64,000 nucleotides of DNA, taken from Massilia sp. YIM B02443 (GTDB taxonomy: Bacteria; Pseudomonadota; Gammaproteobacteria; Burkholderiales; Burkholderiaceae_D). Positions 22,128 through 31,275 of this stretch are shown here, piece by piece. The stretch's first letter is position 1, and every line of letters begins with the position of its first letter. The notes beneath the pieces were generated by a model. The model had not been told where the DNA came from. It searched no databases and saw only the letters and a list, made by a program, of their open reading frames with translations. The stretch lies in assembly GCF_030411955.1 (NCBI RefSeq), contig NZ_JASNRA010000020.1, forward strand, positions 1 to 64,000, given 5' to 3'. The position numbers and the translations under genes were made by a program.

Positions 22128-23069
22128 TCAGCGCGCCGCGATGGACGCGGCGTCGTCCGCCATCCGGTACTGGTTGCGCCCGCCGGCCTTGGCCTGGTAC
22201 AGCAGGGCGTCGGCCGCCGCGAACAGGGCCTCGTGCCCCTGTCCTTCGCGCGGCACCATGCTGCACAGGCCCATGCTGACCGTGATGTGCGGGGCGGTTG
22301 GCGAAGCCGCGTGCGGCAGATCGAGCTGGGCCAGCTCTTCCAGCAGGCGGTGCGCCACCCCTTCGGCGCCGAGCGTGTCGAGCTGCGGCAGCAGGATCGC
22401 GAACTCTTCGCCGCCGTAGCGCGTGACCAGGTCGTGGGTGCGGCCGGCGCCGCGCCGCAGCGCCGCCGCCACCTGCACCAGGCAGGCGTCGCCGCCCTGG
22501 TGGCCGTAATGGTCGTTGTAGGCCTTGAAGTGGTCGACGTCGACCAGGATCAGCGCCACCGGCAGCCCGGCGCGGGCGCAGCGGCGCCACTCCGCTTCCA
22601 GCCGTTCGTCGAAGGCGCGGCGGTTGGCCACGCCGGTGAGCGGATCGGTCAGGGTCAGGGCGCGCAGGGCGTCGGCCTGGCGCTTGACGGTGAGCTGGGT
22701 GCGCACGCGCGCGCGCACCACAGCGGCATTGACTGGCTTGGTGATGAAGTCGGCGGCGCCGGCTTCCAGCGCGCGGGTCTCGTCTTCCGGGGTTTTCAGG
22801 GCAGTGACGAAGATCACCGGGATGTCGCGCGTCTCGGGCGCGGCGCGCAGCAGCTGGCACACGGCGTAGCCGTCGATGTCGGGCATCACGGCGTCGACCA
22901 GGATCAGGTCGGGATGCTGGGTGCGGGCCAGCTCGAGCGCGCGCGCGCCGTCGAGCGCGAACAGCACTTCCTGCTCGTCCTGCAGCGCCGCGTGCAGGAT
23001 CTGGACGTTTTCCATCGCATCGTCGACCACGAGGATGCGGCCGTTCAGGGCCATTTCGGTCCAGCTCAT
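22128..23069 (-). CDS. Response regulator diguanylate cyclase (REC-GGDEF)
   Basis: The product is about 313 aa. The receiver domain (about 8-125) has VVDD and the phosphoacceptor Asp in LVDAVMPD (about residue 56). The GGDEF domain follows with an intact GGEEF at about 220 and RTHD five residues before it as the inhibitory site. It thus makes c-di-GMP under phosphorelay control, like WspR/PleD-type enzymes. ATG at 23069 was chosen because AAGGAG is 5 bases away; GTG at 23072 is too close. The start overlaps the stop of the hybrid kinase by one base (TGATG), so the two form a translationally coupled pair. Confidence 0.92.
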   Translation of the reverse strand: MSWTEMALNGRILVVDDAMENVQILHAALQDEQEVLFALDGARALELARTQHPDLILVDAVMPDIDGYAVCQLLRAAPETRDIPVIFVTALKTPEDETRALEAGAADFITKPVNAAVVRARVRTQLTVKRQADALRALTLTDPLTGVANRRAFDERLEAEWRRCARAGLPVALILVDVDHFKAYNDHYGHQGGDACLVQVAAALRRGAGRTHDLVTRYGGEEFAILLPQLDTLGAEGVAHRLLEELAQLDLPHAASPTAPHITVSMGLCSMVPREGQGHEALFAAADALLYQAKAGGRNQYRMADDAASIAAR

Positions 23070-26000
23070 CACGTCTCCTTCATCAATCCATCCACCAGGC
23101 GCAGCGCTTCGCCGAAGCGCAGGGTGGCGACGGCGTCGAACAGCGCGTTCGCGGCCTCGGCGCCCGCTTCGGCCGCCAGCAGCGGCCGCAGGGCGTCGGC
23201 GTCGGCCAGCGCCTTCATATTGTTATTCTCCAGCAGGTGGCGCAGGCGTGCCAGCGATTCGTGCAGTGCGGCGCCGTCACCCGCGCCGGGTAAGCCGGCA
23301 CCTGCTTCGGCAGCCATGTCCGCGACCGGACGCGCCAGCTGGCGCGCCGACCCGGCCAGCACCTCGAGCGCGCGCCCCAGCTCGGCCACGCGCAGCAGCA
23401 CGGTGCCGGCATCGGCATCGTGCAGCGCGCCTTCCAGCGCCTGGGCGGCGCGCGCCGCGTCCAGCGCGCCGAGGTTGGCCGTGACCCCGCGCAGGCGGTG
23501 CGCCAGCTGCCAGGCGGCGTTGCGGTTGCCGGCTTCGGCTTCCTGGCGCAGTTCGGCGAAGGTCGCGCCCTGGCTGTCGGCGAAGCGCACGAACAGGTCG
23601 ACGAAGCGCTCGACGCTGCCGGCGAAACGGGGCAGGGCCGAGGCCAGGTCGATGCCGGGGATGTCGACCGGGGCGTCGGCGGCCGCCGGCGCCGGCAGCA
23701 GGGGCGCCGGCAGGGCCGGAACCGGCGTGGCGCCAGGCTGCGCCGGCGGCGCCAGCCGCGACAGCGTGGCCACCAGCTCGTCGACGTCGATCGGCTTGGA
23801 CAGGTGCGCCTGCATGCCGGCCGCCAGCGAGCGCCGGCGGTCCTCGTCCAGGGCGTTGGCGGTCATCGCCACGATCGGCAAGGTCAATCCGGCGGCGCGG
23901 ATCGCGGCCGCCGCCTCGAAGCCGTTCATTACCGGCATCTGCAGGTCCATCAGCACCACGTCGTAGTCGGCATGCTCGCCCAGCATGGACAGCGCGGCCT
24001 GGCCGTTGCCAGCGATCGCCACCAGCGCGCCGGCGCGCGCCAGGATGTAGCTGGCCACTTCCTGGTTGATGGTGTTGTCCTCGACCAGCAGCACGCGCAG
24101 CCCGGGCAGGCTGCCGGCCAGCGGCGTGGCCGCCAGCGCCGGCGGTGGCATCCCCGGGGAGGCGCTGTCACCCTGCAGGCGCGCGGCCGCCGCCTGCAGG
24201 GTGGCGGCGGTGAACGGCTTGCCCAGCACCGTGGCCACGCCCAGCTCGGCGGCCAGTTCGGCGTAGTGCTCGAGTTCCGGATCGGCGGCCAGCAGGCACA
24301 CGCGCGGCAGCGCGCCGCCGATCTGCCGGCGCGCGGCGGCGAGCAGCGCCACGCCGTCCAGGCCCGGCATCGCGCTGTCGAGGAAGGCGTAGTCGTAACG
24401 CGCCGCGCCCATGCGTTCGAGCGCGGCCTGGCCGCCGTCGGCCGTGTCGACGCGCCAGCCAAAAGCGGCGCAGGCGGCGGCCAGGGCCTGGCGCGCGCTG
24501 GCGTTGTCGTCGGCCACCAGCACCAGCGGCGCATCCGCGCCGGCAGCCACGGCGGGAGCATCTTCCAGCACCGGGAAATCGAGCTCGAAATGGAAGGTGG
24601 CGCCGGCGCCCGCTTCGCTCTCCAGCGCCAGGCTGCCGCCGCTGAGCTGCACCAGGCGGCGCGCGATCGACAGGCCCAGGCCGGCGCCGCCGTACTTGCG
24701 CACGGTGGAGCTGTCGGCCTGGGTAAAGACTTCGAAGATGCGCGCCTGGGCCTCGGGCGCGATGCCGATGCCGGTGTCGCGCACCGAGAAGCGCAGGCGC
24801 ACCGTGTCGCCGTCACGGGCGGCGAGCGCGATGGCGAGCACGATCTCGCCGCGGTCGGTGAACTTGATGGCGTTGCCGAACAGGTTGAGCAGCACCTGTT
24901 CCAGGCGCAGGGCGTCGCCGCGCAGCAGCGCCGGCACGCCGGGGTCGAACGCGAACACCGGCTCCACGCCCTTGGCCCAGGCGCCCGGGGCGCTCAGCAC
25001 GGCGACGCTGGAGAGCACGTCGTCGAGCCGGAACGGGATCGCTTCCAGCGTCAGCTGGCCGGCCTCGATGCGGGAAAAGTCGAGCAGGTCGCTCAGCATG
25101 CCCAGCAGCGAACGGGCGGCGGTGCGCATGCGCGCCACGTAGCTGCGCTCGCGCGGACCGAGCTGGCCTTCTTCGAGCAGGCGCGCCAGGCCGACGATGG
25201 CGTTCATCGGCGTGCGCAGCTCGTGGCTCATATTGGCCAGGAACTCGCCCTTGGCGCGGCTGGCCTGTTCCGCCTGGTGCAGGGCATCCTTGAGCTGCTC
25301 GCCGGTGGCGCGCAGCGCGGCTTCGGCCGCGACCCGGGTGCTGATGTCGCGGATCGTCACCTGCATCATGCCGACCCCGCCGATGTCGACCCGCGTGAGC
25401 AGCACGTCGGCATGGAACACGGCGCCGTCGACGCGCTGGTGCAGCCACTCGAAGGCGGCGCGGCCCTGTTCCAGCGCGCAGCGCATATAGTCGAGCGCCG
25501 CTTCGCTGCTGGGGCGGCCGTCCAGCTGCAGCAGCGGCGACAGGCTGGCCGGCGATTCGTCCTGCAGCGCCTGCGGATCGGCAAAGCCGAACAGGGTGGC
25601 CGCGGCCTGGTTGGCGCTGACGTAGCCGGCGCCGTAGGCCACCAGCAGGTGGGCGTCGCCCGAGGCTTCGAACAGGGCGCGGAACATCTCCTGGTGGTCG
25701 CGTTCGCGCTGCTGCAACAGCTTGCGCTCGGTGATGTCGAGCACCACCGCGCTGACCCCGACCAGGGTGGCGTCCGGGCCGTACACCGGGAAGTAGCTGG
25801 CGATCCAGTGGCGCATGTGGCCCGGCGCGCTGGGCGCCTCGGCGCTGGACTCGACTTCGACCATCGGCCGTCCGGTCTCGGCCACGCGCCGGTAGCACTG
25901 TTCGTATTCCTCGCCCAGCGGCCCCAGGATCTCGGACAGGGCGCGCCCGGCGTGCTCGCGCGCCGGCCGGCCGTTGATGTCGGCCAGGTAGTCGTTGACC

Positions 26001-27190
26001 ATCACCACCCGCATCTCGGTGTCCATGAAGCACAGGCCGACCGGGGCCGAGGCGTACACCGTCTCGAGCTGGGCCTTGGAGCGTTCCAGCTCGCGGGTGC
26101 GCTCGGCCACCAGCGACTCCAGCCCGTTGCGGTAGTCCTGCAGCTCGGCGTCGACCTGGCGCAGGGCGTTGGCCACCGCATCGACTTCGCGGATGTCGCT
26201 CGGGGGCAGCACCAGCGGCTCGCCGCGCCCCAGGCGCTCGGCCGGCTCGGCCAGCGACTGCACCGAGCGCGCGATGTTCCCGCCCAGTGCCCAGGCCAGG
26301 CCAAGGCTGATCGCCAGCAGGGCGCCGACCACCGCCAGCGTGGCGCCGAGCGACTGCCCGAGCAGGGCACGCGCCGCGTCCTCGGGATAGCGGATCGCCA
26401 CCACCCAGCCGTGCGCGGTGGAGCGGGCGAAGGCGGCGTAGCCGGGATTGCCGGCCGCGTCTTCCACGCGCACGCTGCCGGTGTCGTGGGTGCCGGCCGC
26501 CTCGTCGAGCGCGGCAATCATCGGCGCGCCCAGGTGCTTGCCGGCGTCGGCGCTGCGCGAGACCATCTGGTGGCGGCGGTCGTAGATCTCGGCCACCCAG
26601 CCCTCGGGCAGGTGCTGGCTGTCGAGCAGTCCGGCCATGCGGCGCGGGCGCAGGTGCACCGACAGCACGTAGCGCACCTTGCCGTCCTTCCACACCGGGA
26701 CGTCGACCGACAGCGCGAACTGGCCGCCGGCGTCCAGCCGGTGCAGGCTGGAAGCGACCGTGTCGCCGGTGGCCCCGACGCGCCGGATGTCGTCTTCGTT
26801 GCCGCTGCGCGGCAGGCTGGAGCCGAACGGGTAGCGGGTATTCACCAGCGGGGTGCCGTCCGGCGCGCTCAGCACGAAGGCCTGGGCCGGGAATTCGGGG
26901 CGCAGCATGCGCCGCGTGACGCGGTGCACCGCCTCCAGGTCGCCGTTGTCGACCATCGCGGTACTGGCCAGCACGCGCGCGGCCGTCTCGCCGCTCTCGA
27001 TGTCGCGGTCGACCGCCGCCGCCAGCACCTCGGCCACGGTCTGGGCGTCGCTGGCCACGTGGGCACGCTCGCGCAGCGCGGCGTCGCGCGCCAGAAAGAA
27101 GTAGCCGACCAGGATCGGCAGCGCGCATGCCAGCACCAGCACGTACAGCTTGGCGCGGATCGAGGGCAATGGCAGGCGGGCGAACGACAA
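23069..27190 (-). CDS. Hybrid sensor histidine kinase with two PAS, two receiver and one HPt domain
   Basis: The product is about 1373 aa, an inner-membrane sensor. TM1 lies at about 17-36, a periplasmic dCACHE-like domain at 40-275 and TM2 at 283-305. HAMP follows at 305-360 and PAS domains at about 370-485 and 497-620. HisKA comes next with SHELRTP (His about 655), then HATPase with NLFGNAIKFT and DTGIGI. Receiver 1 has Asp in LDSAMPG (about 935) and receiver 2 Asp in LMDLQMP (about 1082). The C-terminal HPt carries HRLRG (about 1231). The phosphorelay His-Asp-His can pass phosphate to the coupled REC-GGDEF protein. TTG at 27190 was preferred because CCGGAG is 5 bases upstream; GTG at 27238 is the alternative and adds 16 residues. 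Confidence 0.9.
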   Translation of the reverse strand: MSFARLPLPSIRAKLYVLVLACALPILVGYFFLARDAALRERAHVASDAQTVAEVLAAAVDRDIESGETAARVLASTAMVDNGDLEAVHRVTRRMLRPEFPAQAFVLSAPDGTPLVNTRYPFGSSLPRSGNEDDIRRVGATGDTVASSLHRLDAGGQFALSVDVPVWKDGKVRYVLSVHLRPRRMAGLLDSQHLPEGWVAEIYDRRHQMVSRSADAGKHLGAPMIAALDEAAGTHDTGSVRVEDAAGNPGYAAFARSTAHGWVVAIRYPEDAARALLGQSLGATLAVVGALLAISLGLAWALGGNIARSVQSLAEPAERLGRGEPLVLPPSDIREVDAVANALRQVDAELQDYRNGLESLVAERTRELERSKAQLETVYASAPVGLCFMDTEMRVVMVNDYLADINGRPAREHAGRALSEILGPLGEEYEQCYRRVAETGRPMVEVESSAEAPSAPGHMRHWIASYFPVYGPDATLVGVSAVVLDITERKLLQQRERDHQEMFRALFEASGDAHLLVAYGAGYVSANQAAATLFGFADPQALQDESPASLSPLLQLDGRPSSEAALDYMRCALEQGRAAFEWLHQRVDGAVFHADVLLTRVDIGGVGMMQVTIRDISTRVAAEAALRATGEQLKDALHQAEQASRAKGEFLANMSHELRTPMNAIVGLARLLEEGQLGPRERSYVARMRTAARSLLGMLSDLLDFSRIEAGQLTLEAIPFRLDDVLSSVAVLSAPGAWAKGVEPVFAFDPGVPALLRGDALRLEQVLLNLFGNAIKFTDRGEIVLAIALAARDGDTVRLRFSVRDTGIGIAPEAQARIFEVFTQADSSTVRKYGGAGLGLSIARRLVQLSGGSLALESEAGAGATFHFELDFPVLEDAPAVAAGADAPLVLVADDNASARQALAAACAAFGWRVDTADGGQAALERMGAARYDYAFLDSAMPGLDGVALLAAARRQIGGALPRVCLLAADPELEHYAELAAELGVATVLGKPFTAATLQAAAARLQGDSASPGMPPPALAATPLAGSLPGLRVLLVEDNTINQEVASYILARAGALVAIAGNGQAALSMLGEHADYDVVLMDLQMPVMNGFEAAAAIRAAGLTLPIVAMTANALDEDRRRSLAAGMQAHLSKPIDVDELVATLSRLAPPAQPGATPVPALPAPLLPAPAAADAPVDIPGIDLASALPRFAGSVERFVDLFVRFADSQGATFAELRQEAEAGNRNAAWQLAHRLRGVTANLGALDAARAAQALEGALHDADAGTVLLRVAELGRALEVLAGSARQLARPVADMAAEAGAGLPGAGDGAALHESLARLRHLLENNNMKALADADALRPLLAAEAGAEAANALFDAVATLRFGEALRLVDGLMKET

Positions 27191-27425
27191 GGGGGCTCCG
27201 GTAGAGGGTAAAGGTGCGGGACGGCAAAACGCGCCCACCCGTCATGGTAGCGAACCTTACCCTTGCCGCATAGCATTGTGGCGCCGCTGACGGTCGAGGC
27301 CGTCATTACGCCGCAACATGGCGGTTTGACATTTTTGGCGTCGGCTGCAGCGCCGGCGCGGCATGGCGGCAACACCAGTGCAAAGGATTGATGATGCCAA
27401 ACGTTAATTTTGATGCTTTCTGGCA

Positions 27426-29177: not shown

Positions 29178-30434
29178 ATGCCGTTCTTCGCTTATAAGGG
29201 CCGCGACGCGCGCGGCGCCCTGATGCAGGGCGTGCTGGAAGGCGCCGACAGCGCGGCGGTGGCCGACCAGCTGTTCGGCGCCGGCGTGACGCCGGTCGAG
29301 ATCACGCCGACGCGCAAGGCCAGCACCGGCGCCGGCGGCGCAGGCGGTGACCTGCGCGGCTGGCGCGAGCACCTGTTCGAGAAAAAGGTGACGTCGCTGG
29401 ACGTGCAGCTGTTCAGCCGCCAGATCTACACGCTGTTGAAATCCGGCGTGCCGATCATGCGCGGACTGGCCGGGCTGCAGGAGTCGGCGATCAGCAAGTC
29501 GTTCGCGCGTGTGATCAAGGACCTGCGCGAGTCGCTCGACGCCGGGCGCGAGCTGTCGATCGCGATGGCGCGCCATCCGGCCGTGTTCACGCCGTTCTAC
29601 CTGTCGATGGTGAAGGTGGGCGAGATGACCGGACGCCTGGAGGAAGTGTTCCTGCGCCTGTTCGACCACCTCGAGTTCGAGCGCGACATGCGGGAGCGGG
29701 TCAAGACGGCGCTGCGCTATCCGGGCTTCGTCGTGATCGCGATGGTCATTGCGATGACGGTGGTGAACGTCTGGGTGATCCCGCAGTTCTCCAAGGTGTT
29801 CGCCTCGTTCAATGCCGAGCTGCCGCTGATGACGCGCATCCTGCTCGGCGCGTCCAATTTCACGGTCGCCTGGTGGCCGGCGCTGGCGGCCGTCGCCGCA
29901 GGGGCGTTCCTGGGTTTGCGCGCCTGGACCGGTACCGCCAGGGGACGCCTGACCTGGGACCGCTACAAGCTGCGCCTGCCGATCGCCGGCAAGATCATCC
30001 ACAAGGCCACCATGGCGCGCTTCGCGCGCAGCTTCGCGCTGTCGCTGCGCAGCGGGGTGCCGATCGTGCAGGCCCTGAGCGTGGTGTCGCAGACCGCCGA
30101 CAACGCCTACCTGAGCATGCGCATCGAGCAGATGCGCGACGGCGTCGAGCGCGGCGACAGCATCCTGCGCACCTCGACCGCGGCCAGCGTATTCACACCG
30201 ATGGTGCTGCAGATGATTGCGGTGGGCGAGGAATCCGGTTCGCTCGACGACCTGATGGACGAGATCGCGCAGATGTACGAGCGCGAGGTCGACTACGAGC
30301 TCAAGACCCTGTCGAGCCAGATCGAGCCGGTCCTGATCGTGTTCCTGGGCGCGATGGTGCTGGTGTTGGCGCTCGGTATTTTCCTGCCGATCTGGGACCT
30401 GGGACAGGCGGCGCTGCGACCGAAAGCCGGGTGA
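29178..30434 (+). CDS. mshG: MSHA-type pilus inner-membrane platform protein (GspF/PilC family)
   Basis: The product is 418 aa. Two GspF domains (about 68-190 and 270-395) are each followed by membrane helices near 170-190, 220-240 and 380-400. It starts 10 bp after mshE, the usual partner. The platform protein couples ATPase motion to pilin extraction from the inner membrane. PFFAYKGRDARG at the start is typical for the family. Confidence 0.92.
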   Translation: MPFFAYKGRDARGALMQGVLEGADSAAVADQLFGAGVTPVEITPTRKASTGAGGAGGDLRGWREHLFEKKVTSLDVQLFSRQIYTLLKSGVPIMRGLAGLQESAISKSFARVIKDLRESLDAGRELSIAMARHPAVFTPFYLSMVKVGEMTGRLEEVFLRLFDHLEFERDMRERVKTALRYPGFVVIAMVIAMTVVNVWVIPQFSKVFASFNAELPLMTRILLGASNFTVAWWPALAAVAAGAFLGLRAWTGTARGRLTWDRYKLRLPIAGKIIHKATMARFARSFALSLRSGVPIVQALSVVSQTADNAYLSMRIEQMRDGVERGDSILRTSTAASVFTPMVLQMIAVGEESGSLDDLMDEIAQMYEREVDYELKTLSSQIEPVLIVFLGAMVLVLALGIFLPIWDLGQAALRPKAG

Positions 30435-30501
30435 GTGTGGCAAATAAGCTGGAAAGCGCCAGTTTTTGCCTTCAGGACATTTAATTTCCCAAGGTTCAAT
30501 G

Positions 30502-30507
30502 TAGAAT
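30502..30507 (+). promoter_or_regulatory. Possible -10 box of the major pilin gene
   Basis: TAGAAT lies 24 bases before the structured leader. No good -35 is visible at the right distance. A sigma-54 site with correct GG-N10-GC spacing was not found. Confidence 0.3.
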
Positions 30508-30530
30508 TGCCGCGTATCTCTCCCTCGGCA

Positions 30531-30621
30531 GTGTGCGAGGTGGGGAGCTCAGGGGAGGAAGCCCGGAAGCCCGGGTTACGACCGTCCCCATCGACAGAGT
30601 CTACAGCGGTCGTTCGCACAC
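30531..30621 (+). ncRNA. Candidate pseudoknotted cis-regulatory RNA leader of the major pilin gene
   Basis: Four perfect helices can form. P1 is GTGTGCGA (30531-30538) with TCGCACAC (30614-30621). P2 is CCCGG/CCGGG (30562-30566, 30571-30575) with loop AAGC. P3 is ACGACCG (30578-30584) with CGGTCGT (30607-30613). A pseudoknot helix joins TGGGGA (30541-30546) to TCCCCA (30585-30590) in the P3 loop. P1 and P3 abut at 30613/30614 and could stack. The pilin ribosome binding site (CGGAG, 30630-30634) lies 9 bases after P1. I recognise no known riboswitch class. Confidence 0.45.
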
Positions 30622-30642
30622 ACTTCTTACGGAGAGAAAAAT

Positions 30643-31107
30643 ATGAACAATGGTATGAAAATGAAAGCGCAAGGCGGCTTCACCCTGATCGAACTGATCG
30701 TCGTCATCGTGATCCTCGGTATCCTGGCCGCGACCGCGCTGCCGAAGTTTGCCAGCCTGAGCGGCGACGCACGTGCTGCCAGCCTGCAGGCGGCACGCGG
30801 CGCAATGGCCGCCACCTCATCCATGGCGCACGGTAAGTATCTGATCAAGCCGAGCATTACCACGCTCACCGTTGAAGGCGTCGAGATGACGATGAAGGAT
30901 GGCTACCCGGCCGGCGATACGCCGTTCGCCCGCGCCGCCGGCCTGGCCGACACCGACTACAAGGTGACTGCCGCCAACGGCGCCGTGACGGTCGTGCCGC
31001 TGAACGTTACCGCTGCGATCGAGGGCACCTGCTTCGTGCGCTACACCCAGGCAGCTTCGCTGAACGCCGCACCGACCTTCACCCAGGATCTGAGCAAGTG
31101 CGAGTAA
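30643..31107 (+). CDS. mshA: Type IV prepilin, MSHA-like major pilin
   Basis: The product is 154 aa. The type III leader ends KAQGG before FTLIELIVVIVILGIL, the conserved N-methyl helix with Glu at mature position 5, so the prepilin peptidase should cut after Gly12 and leave a 142-aa pilin. Two Cys near the C terminus (EGTCF and SKCE) can form the disulfide-bound D-region. GGAGAG precedes the ATG. It has its own structured leader and a strong terminator, as expected for an abundant subunit, and sits between mshG and mshI. No minor pilin genes (mshB, C, D, O, P, Q) are in the window. Confidence 0.92.
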   Translation: MNNGMKMKAQGGFTLIELIVVIVILGILAATALPKFASLSGDARAASLQAARGAMAATSSMAHGKYLIKPSITTLTVEGVEMTMKDGYPAGDTPFARAAGLADTDYKVTAANGAVTVVPLNVTAAIEGTCFVRYTQAASLNAAPTFTQDLSKCE

Positions 31108-31128
31108 TCCTGGCCTGAGCCGGCACAG

Positions 31129-31163
31129 CGGACACGGTCGCCTTATGCGACCGTGTCCGTTTT
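31129..31163 (+). terminator. Rho-independent terminator of the pilin gene
   Basis: CGGACACGGTCGC and GCGACCGTGTCCG form a perfect 13-bp stem around CTTAT, followed by TTTT, 22 bases after the stop codon. Confidence 0.93.
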
Positions 31164-31275
31164 ACGTTAACCGCTTTGCAGCTTCGGGGCGCAGCTACCG
31201 GTGCGCGAATGCGACGTCGACACACTGCTTTTGCCGGATCGGCGACATTTTGTGATTCCCGGAGTCAGTCTTGTC

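Follow-up and report, generated by a model that had tools for sequence, protein, structure and literature searches.

The stretch 30531–30621 of the window (the whole stretch of 64,000 nucleotides that was analysed) probably lies, judging from its sequence context, within the 5′ leader of a separate transcript of the major pilin gene mshA. The four-helix pseudoknotted RNA proposed there by the initial annotation was judged not to be conserved in relatives. Two other features of the leader appear to be kept. Comparison of related loci gave good evidence for a promoter core that would be under selection of its own, embedded in the preceding gene, and the place of a small hairpin before the Shine–Dalgarno (SD) sequence appears to be conserved, through changes of the letters, in the Massilia/Telluria clade. 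We give about an even chance to the reading that mshA is transcribed on its own with an ordinary structured leader, which would probably aid the stability of the pilin mRNA or hold the SD open.

Features of the mshA leader and its surroundings (positions in the window)
Feature	Position	Strand	Basis or remark
mshG-type inner-membrane pilus gene (T2SSF), upstream of the leader	29178–30434	+	PF00482, E 2.3e-55
mshA-specific promoter-like element TTCAATGTAGAATT; TAGAAT, −10-like hexamer, at 30502–30507	30495–30508	+	sequence comparison
Predicted mshA 5′ untranslated leader, ~129 nt	30514–30642	+	from the promoter-like element, start ~7 nt after TAGAAT
UCUCUCC, complementary to SD GGAGAGA at 30631–30637; candidate anti-SD (P0)	30517–30523	+	predicted pairing
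Four-helix pseudoknotted element	30531–30621	+	helices present; judged not conserved
Closing stem, 8 bp	30531–30538/30614–30621		
Crossing (pseudoknot) helix, 6 bp	30541–30546/30585–30590		
Enclosed hairpin, 5 bp	30562–30566/30571–30575		
Second enclosed helix, 7 bp	30578–30584/30607–30613		
Long hairpin: the 6-bp 'pseudoknot' strands as a nested helix around the CCCGG/CCGGG hairpin	30541–30590	+	predicted
Pre-SD hairpin GCGG-UCGU-UCGC, 3′ end 25 nt before AUG	30606–30617	+	conserved place; weak copy
Shine–Dalgarno GGAGAG	30631–30636	+	nearly invariant in alignment A3 (44 selected segments)
mshA-type pilin, 154 aa, N-methylation motif	30643–31107	+	PF07963, E 2.8e-09
15-bp hairpin, 3′ end running into CCGTTTTACGTT; probable mshA transcription terminator	31127–31161	+	folding energy

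The mshA transcript and its promoter-like element

Eighty named loci with an mshG orthologue were fetched, and mshA was recognised in 79 of them; an mshA match was present in all 62 of the 62 genus genomes. An extra prepilin gene, taken as any frame of 120 codons or more, lay between mshG and mshA in 74 of the 79 loci. The loci without such a frame were L062, L063, L076, L112 and L119, and L112, with 619 nt between its mshG and pilin, may nevertheless have the gene. It may be noted that tandem mshA-like pilin genes, two or three in number, were seen at L068, L095, L100 and L133. When a tree of 77 MshG proteins (one misread row, L087, with a branch of 10, included) was examined, the window grouped with M. 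aurea and Massilia sp. HP4 with a support of 99/90. Room for a prepilin gene between mshG and mshA was missing in all three of these lineages, so the loss was probably shared. In the window, the ORF 30435–30836 still reads F-N-V-E-L where relatives read F-K-V-E-L.

The closest MshG among the collections examined was 83–84% identical, and these collections held no strain within 5–10% of this genome. The predicted leaders measured 59 nt (HP4), 133 nt (M. aurea group) and 129 nt (window). When 195 genomes of the family were searched with the leader for DNA similarity, the non-self matches listed started at query base 179 (30618) or later, and the region from 30618 on is that of the SD and the pilin start. 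The same query returned only itself from its own genome, with no second copy. Pairwise comparison of the window leader with 78 other leaders gave a best z of 2.9, and z of 1.4–2.2 for the M. aurea group, values so low that homology of the leader body is uncertain.

The 14-base promoter-like element TTCAAGGTARAATT was found exactly once per genome in 45 of the 62 genus genomes, all 45 copies being 96–186 nt upstream of the mshA match, and its reversed control pattern gave no match in the 62. In the window's own genome the variant TTCAAKGTARAATT occurs once, at 30495–30508. By pattern, TTCAAGGTA(G/A)AATT or a near variant was present in 71 of 88 leaders, mostly 110–173 nt before mshA, and ATGTAGAAT in four further leaders, those of the window and of three M. 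aurea-group members.

For 60 of 74 named loci the element was located inside the prepilin-size frame and in frame, with GTA as one codon, the pattern itself having demanded GTA or TTA there; of the others, 13 were without the element and one had it outside the frame. GTA accounts for 71 of the 2898 Val codons in mshG. The retention of so rare a codon in the prepilin frame suggests that selection is not on the protein alone. When the hexamer TAGAAT was searched for as such in the 11 leaders without room for a prepilin gene (225–307 nt from mshG to pilin, window included), it was present in all of them, and the rest of the element drifted. The window and its nearest relatives have kept the core of the element despite the loss of the minor prepilin gene.

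A sigma-70 scan for −35 and −10 hexamers 16–18 nt apart gave no consensus promoter here and no recognisable −35 box. A T-rich block and an AT..A..TT.C block, possibly an activator site, are kept about 35–42 nt upstream of TAGAAT in msh leaders. The combination of TAGAAT and these upstream blocks without a −35 box would make an activator-dependent or other promoter likelier than a sigma-70 promoter. A sigma-54 promoter, read from a TTGC block, was rejected; its spacing was off by one (by eye) and the window has TTCC at that block.

The promoter-like element upstream of mshA and the hairpin 31127–31161 after it together point to mshA being transcribed on its own, with a leader of about 129 nt. 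The probable terminator region 31105–31175 folded at −35.3 kcal/mol (z −4.98), and none of 200 shuffles was as low; the hairpin itself was absent from the output of a simple terminator scan. The initial annotation had allowed that a transcription start downstream of 30531 would defeat its proposal. There was no sign of such a start, the predicted one being upstream of 30531, from the conserved promoter-like element.

The four helices at 30531–30621

All four perfect Watson–Crick helices (8, 5, 7 and 6 bp; 26 pairs) were present exactly as the initial annotation had claimed, and the closing stem does stop nine bases short of the ribosome binding site of the pilin gene, GGAGAG at 30631. As a chance test, sets of at most four Watson–Crick helices sharing no base were compared by total bp, the highest-scoring set being taken. 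A value of 26 bp in four helices was reached by none of 500 dinucleotide shuffles (mean 11.5, maximum 23) and by 3 of the 703 non-overlapping 91-nt tiles of the window. The set is locally unusual, yet a 64-kb scan would meet a few such. The folding energy of the 91 nt was moderately low (z −2.09; 7 of 200 shuffles as good), and that of 30514–30690 was ordinary (z −0.76; 44 of 200 shuffles).

The four helices were then followed on alignment A1, which consists of the window and three M. aurea-group rows that are close kin of one another. The pairs kept were 14 of 26 for L062, 11 of 26 for L003 and 14 of 26 for L038. Pairing was observed in 62.5% of the cells, window included, compared with 33.7–43.3% for slid versions; it exceeded that of all 500 shuffles, with six pairs changed on both sides, figures that are inflated because the structure came from one of the four rows. 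On the same alignment, 14 of the 26 pairs departed only through unpaired cells, and four pairs were invariant. A1 was used for the counts for its longer flanks, a choice that favours the anti-SD pairing considered below; A4, in which the M. aurea group and the window were aligned again, had shifted 5′ ends and was excluded from them.

The predicted leader of HP4, at 59 nt, is too short for the 91-nt fold. Inspection by eye of 79 orthologous leaders revealed none similar to the four-helix structure. Both the closing stem and the 7-bp helix run, with their 3′ arms, into the position where relatives keep the small hairpin. The claim of a conserved pseudoknotted RNA was thus given up on the M. aurea-group counts and the HP4 length. 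The want of conservation or covariation upstream of orthologous pilins, which the initial annotation had itself named as telling against its structure, is what was found for that structure across the 79 leaders and within the window's own clade.

Folding of 30514–30660 was computed with ViennaRNA, whose probabilities cover nested folds only and leave pseudoknots unscored. In this nested ensemble at 37 °C, the strands drawn as a pseudoknot (30541–46/30585–90) paired with one another with a probability of 0.89, around the hairpin 30562–66/30571–75 with a probability of 1.00, and the 7-bp helix had a probability of 0.00. At 37 °C the closing stem had a probability of 0.47 and the competing hairpin 30606–30617 one of 0.45; at 28 °C the values were 0.18 and 0.75, respectively. 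The four-helix fold without the pseudoknot amounted to −30.2 kcal/mol at 37 °C, and to −39.5 kcal/mol with the SD/anti-SD helix added, compared with −52.0 kcal/mol for the minimum-energy fold of that sequence; taken by themselves as a duplex, the crossing strands contribute about −9.3 kcal/mol. By this energy comparison the pseudoknotted fold is permitted and not preferred. The closing stem, the 7-bp helix and the pseudoknot would amount, at most, to a rival fold peculiar to this lineage.

A hairpin before the SD, and pairing of the SD itself

A pre-SD hairpin was scored as the best local hairpin, of −4 kcal/mol or lower, within a 58-nt segment that stops 12 nt short of the start codon, with its 3′ end 17–30 nt before ATG; the clade was defined as 28 rows of the MshG tree. 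The hairpin was detected in 23 of the 28 clade rows, compared with a mean of 4.0 (sd 1.9, maximum 9) in shuffles. After removal of rows at least 70% alike it was present in 16 of 21 rows (shuffles 2.8), and after removal of rows at least 62% alike in 12 of 16 (shuffles 2.1). Each of the three counts was reached by none of 300 shuffles, but the clade rows are related and these shuffle counts are therefore not probabilities. The stems are unlike and the pairing is kept, as in GCGG/CCGC, GGAAGGA/TCCTTTC (M. aurea), GGACGA/TCGTCC (HP4) and GGCGCGG/TCGCGCC (M. horti). A MAFFT alignment of 44 pre-SD segments (A3) misaligned the unlike stems of the M. aurea and HP4 groups, and pairs were not counted on it.

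Outside the clade, the hairpin was not clear; it was present in 14 of 52 rows against 6.5 in shuffles (2 of 300 shuffles reach this count), and in 5 of 31 against 3.7 once near-duplicates were removed (97 of 300 reach). Sorted by type of SD, rows with CGGAG had it in 30 of 38 cases (shuffles 5.4, maximum 12) and rows without CGGAG in 13 of 50 (shuffles 6.1, maximum 15). Among control genes it was found before 42 of 176 other genes of the same loci, a set that includes orthologues of the same few genes and is not independent, and before 5 of 29 in the window.

The 3′ end of the hairpin is presumably upstream of the usual footprint of the ribosome, which makes a block of initiation unlikely. Its simplest role, by analogy, would be to hold the SD free and to slow the decay of an abundant structural mRNA.

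In the window itself the copy is weak. At −2.7 kcal/mol it falls below the threshold and is one of the five misses in 28, and its 3′ arm overlaps that of the closing stem, so that the two compete. The strong folding of the leader could then be incidental, a GC-rich remnant left after the loss of the minor prepilin gene, the function of the leader being the spacing of promoter and gene only. Besides the weak copy, the free variation of leader length and sequence among relatives (59, 133 and 129 nt), the occurrence of 26-bp four-helix sets in 3 of the 703 tiles and the ordinary energy of 30514–30690 are in its favour. The place of the hairpin, kept in the clade despite the changes of its stem far above the shuffled count, speaks against it, and we consider incidental folding somewhat unlikely, though the strongest of the alternatives.

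A translational switch was considered next, in which UCUCUCC near the 5′ end sequesters the SD GGAGAGA until it is released by another fold or by a factor. The anti-SD/SD helix had a predicted probability of 0.98 at 37 °C and is part of the nested minimum in the window. All seven of its pairs were kept in the three M. aurea-group leaders, with one pair changed on both sides, and RNAalifold draws the pairing in that group too. However, five of the seven pairs are invariant across the four rows and thus uninformative on structure, and the covariation was matched by 119 of 500 shuffles. Against dinucleotide shuffles, the complementarity in the window had a z of −1.37; z was below −1.5 in 6 of 31 representatives, compared with 4 and 3 for two control segments. 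HP4 was without a comparable duplex (E −4.3, z +1.40), and when four leaders of the M. aurea group were folded singly, each with 30 coding nt attached, the SD was 0.53–0.70 unpaired. Nor did the helix melt between 15 and 42 °C in silico. Leaders that sequester the SD resemble this one in having a pyrimidine-rich stretch near the 5′ end able, by prediction, to pair with the SD, but the support here comes from the window and the M. aurea group only and is not significant across the family. Hence we regard the switch as improbable.

Two related candidates were rejected. The anti-SD as a family-wide feature appeared with plain shuffles (z below −1.5 in 28 of 81 leaders, and −2.81 in the window), and this signal could no longer be told apart with dinucleotide shuffles and the removal of near-duplicates. 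An RNA thermometer was dismissed, as no opening occurred between 15 and 42 °C in silico.

A bolder combination of both kinds of pairing would be a bistable, lineage-specific RNA. In it, pairing of 30517–30523 with 30631–30637 would hide the SD, the closing stem, the 7-bp helix and the pseudoknot together would free it, and a signal linked to c-di-GMP would choose between the two states, such that pilin would be set at translation and at pilus extension alike. We hold this to be very improbable.

c-di-GMP and the reading of the leader

The leader was compared with known RNA families by Rfam cmscan. No riboswitch match was obtained, either for the whole window at the gathering score or for 30420–30760 at E ≤10. 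The sole match at the leader was an 11-nt one to a frameshift element, with an E of 6.9, far below the gathering score. This upheld the statement of the initial annotation that the leader matched neither c-di-GMP-I, c-di-GMP-II nor other riboswitch classes. Its account of the neighbourhood, with a gene for c-di-GMP synthesis and a c-di-GMP-binding pilus ATPase, was also borne out. The locus encodes an ATPase with an MshEN domain (PF05157, E 3.5e-18), at whose N terminus the MshEN motif, as given in excerpts of PMC5013675, is nearly matched twice when read by eye, and a Response_reg-GGDEF protein is encoded about 7.6 kb from mshA. The gene for the latter (22128–23072, minus strand) adjoins a very long ORF (23069–27238, minus strand), the two being divergent from the msh genes; the ORF resembles, by eye, a hybrid sensor kinase. 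The link to c-di-GMP at the msh locus is at the level of protein, through the MshEN ATPase and the GGDEF regulator. No ligand is indicated for the mshA leader, and the ligand-controlled role suggested for it drew no support from Rfam, where it had no relevant match.

A pseudoknotted, ligand-responsive leader of a new class, responding for example to c-di-GMP, was the least probable reading of all, with hardly any weight left to it: the 26 perfect pairs reached by 0 of 500 shuffles, the A1 pairing (62.5% against 34–43% when slid, with six two-sided changes), the GGDEF and MshEN genes nearby and the class II c-di-GMP riboswitch upstream of a C. difficile pilin gene (PMC4744006, in excerpt) are set against the lack of a relevant Rfam match and of a second copy in its own genome, the 11–14 pairs, out of 26, that three leaders of the M. 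aurea group retain, the 59-nt predicted leader of HP4, the overlap of the closing stem and the 7-bp helix, by their 3′ arms, with the conserved hairpin place, and the probability of 0.00 for the 7-bp helix at 37 °C, in an ensemble of nested folds only. The mshA leader is like c-di-GMP-I (GEMM) and c-di-GMP-II riboswitches in its place ahead of a surface-adhesion gene and in the c-di-GMP proteins encoded close by; it differs in giving no match to any riboswitch model of Rfam and in having a structure that orthologous leaders do not keep. On the reading of an ordinary structured leader, the candidate riboswitch would be removed from consideration.

A structured pilin leader is of a known kind. 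In E. coli papA, an intergenic or leader hairpin sets the level of the pilin mRNA. An intergenic hairpin is reported to matter for the expression of ETEC CS6 in the excerpted text of PMC8923064, and operons with selective RNA processing and stabilization (SRPS) are described in portions of PMC8219983 and PMC4423207. These systems, as far as the excerpts describe them, share with mshA a small stable hairpin beside the gene of a major subunit that is needed in excess, and differ in that the mshA hairpin follows a putative promoter used for mshA alone and closely precedes the SD. Our search of the open-access literature found nothing on the structure of the mshA leader in Massilia.

In the reading of an ordinary structured leader, transcription would start about 7 nt after TAGAAT and end at the hairpin after mshA. 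The promoter-like element lies in the 3′ end of the minor prepilin gene in most of the related loci examined, and its core has outlived the loss of that gene. The leader RNA would fold as nested hairpins, a GC-rich one at 30541–30590 and the small one before the SD, of which the latter may protect the abundant pilin mRNA from decay and keep upstream RNA off the ribosome site. As an outcome, the major pilin would be made in excess over the products of the machinery genes.

The embedded promoter-like element is a neat but modest finding. If this simple reading is true, the MSHA-type pili of the Massilia/Telluria group would be driven by a promoter of the major pilin gene hidden in the end of the preceding gene and kept after that gene was lost, along with a short hairpin that close relatives preserve with changed letters. 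It would offer a readily testable way into the production of pilin in excess by these bacteria.
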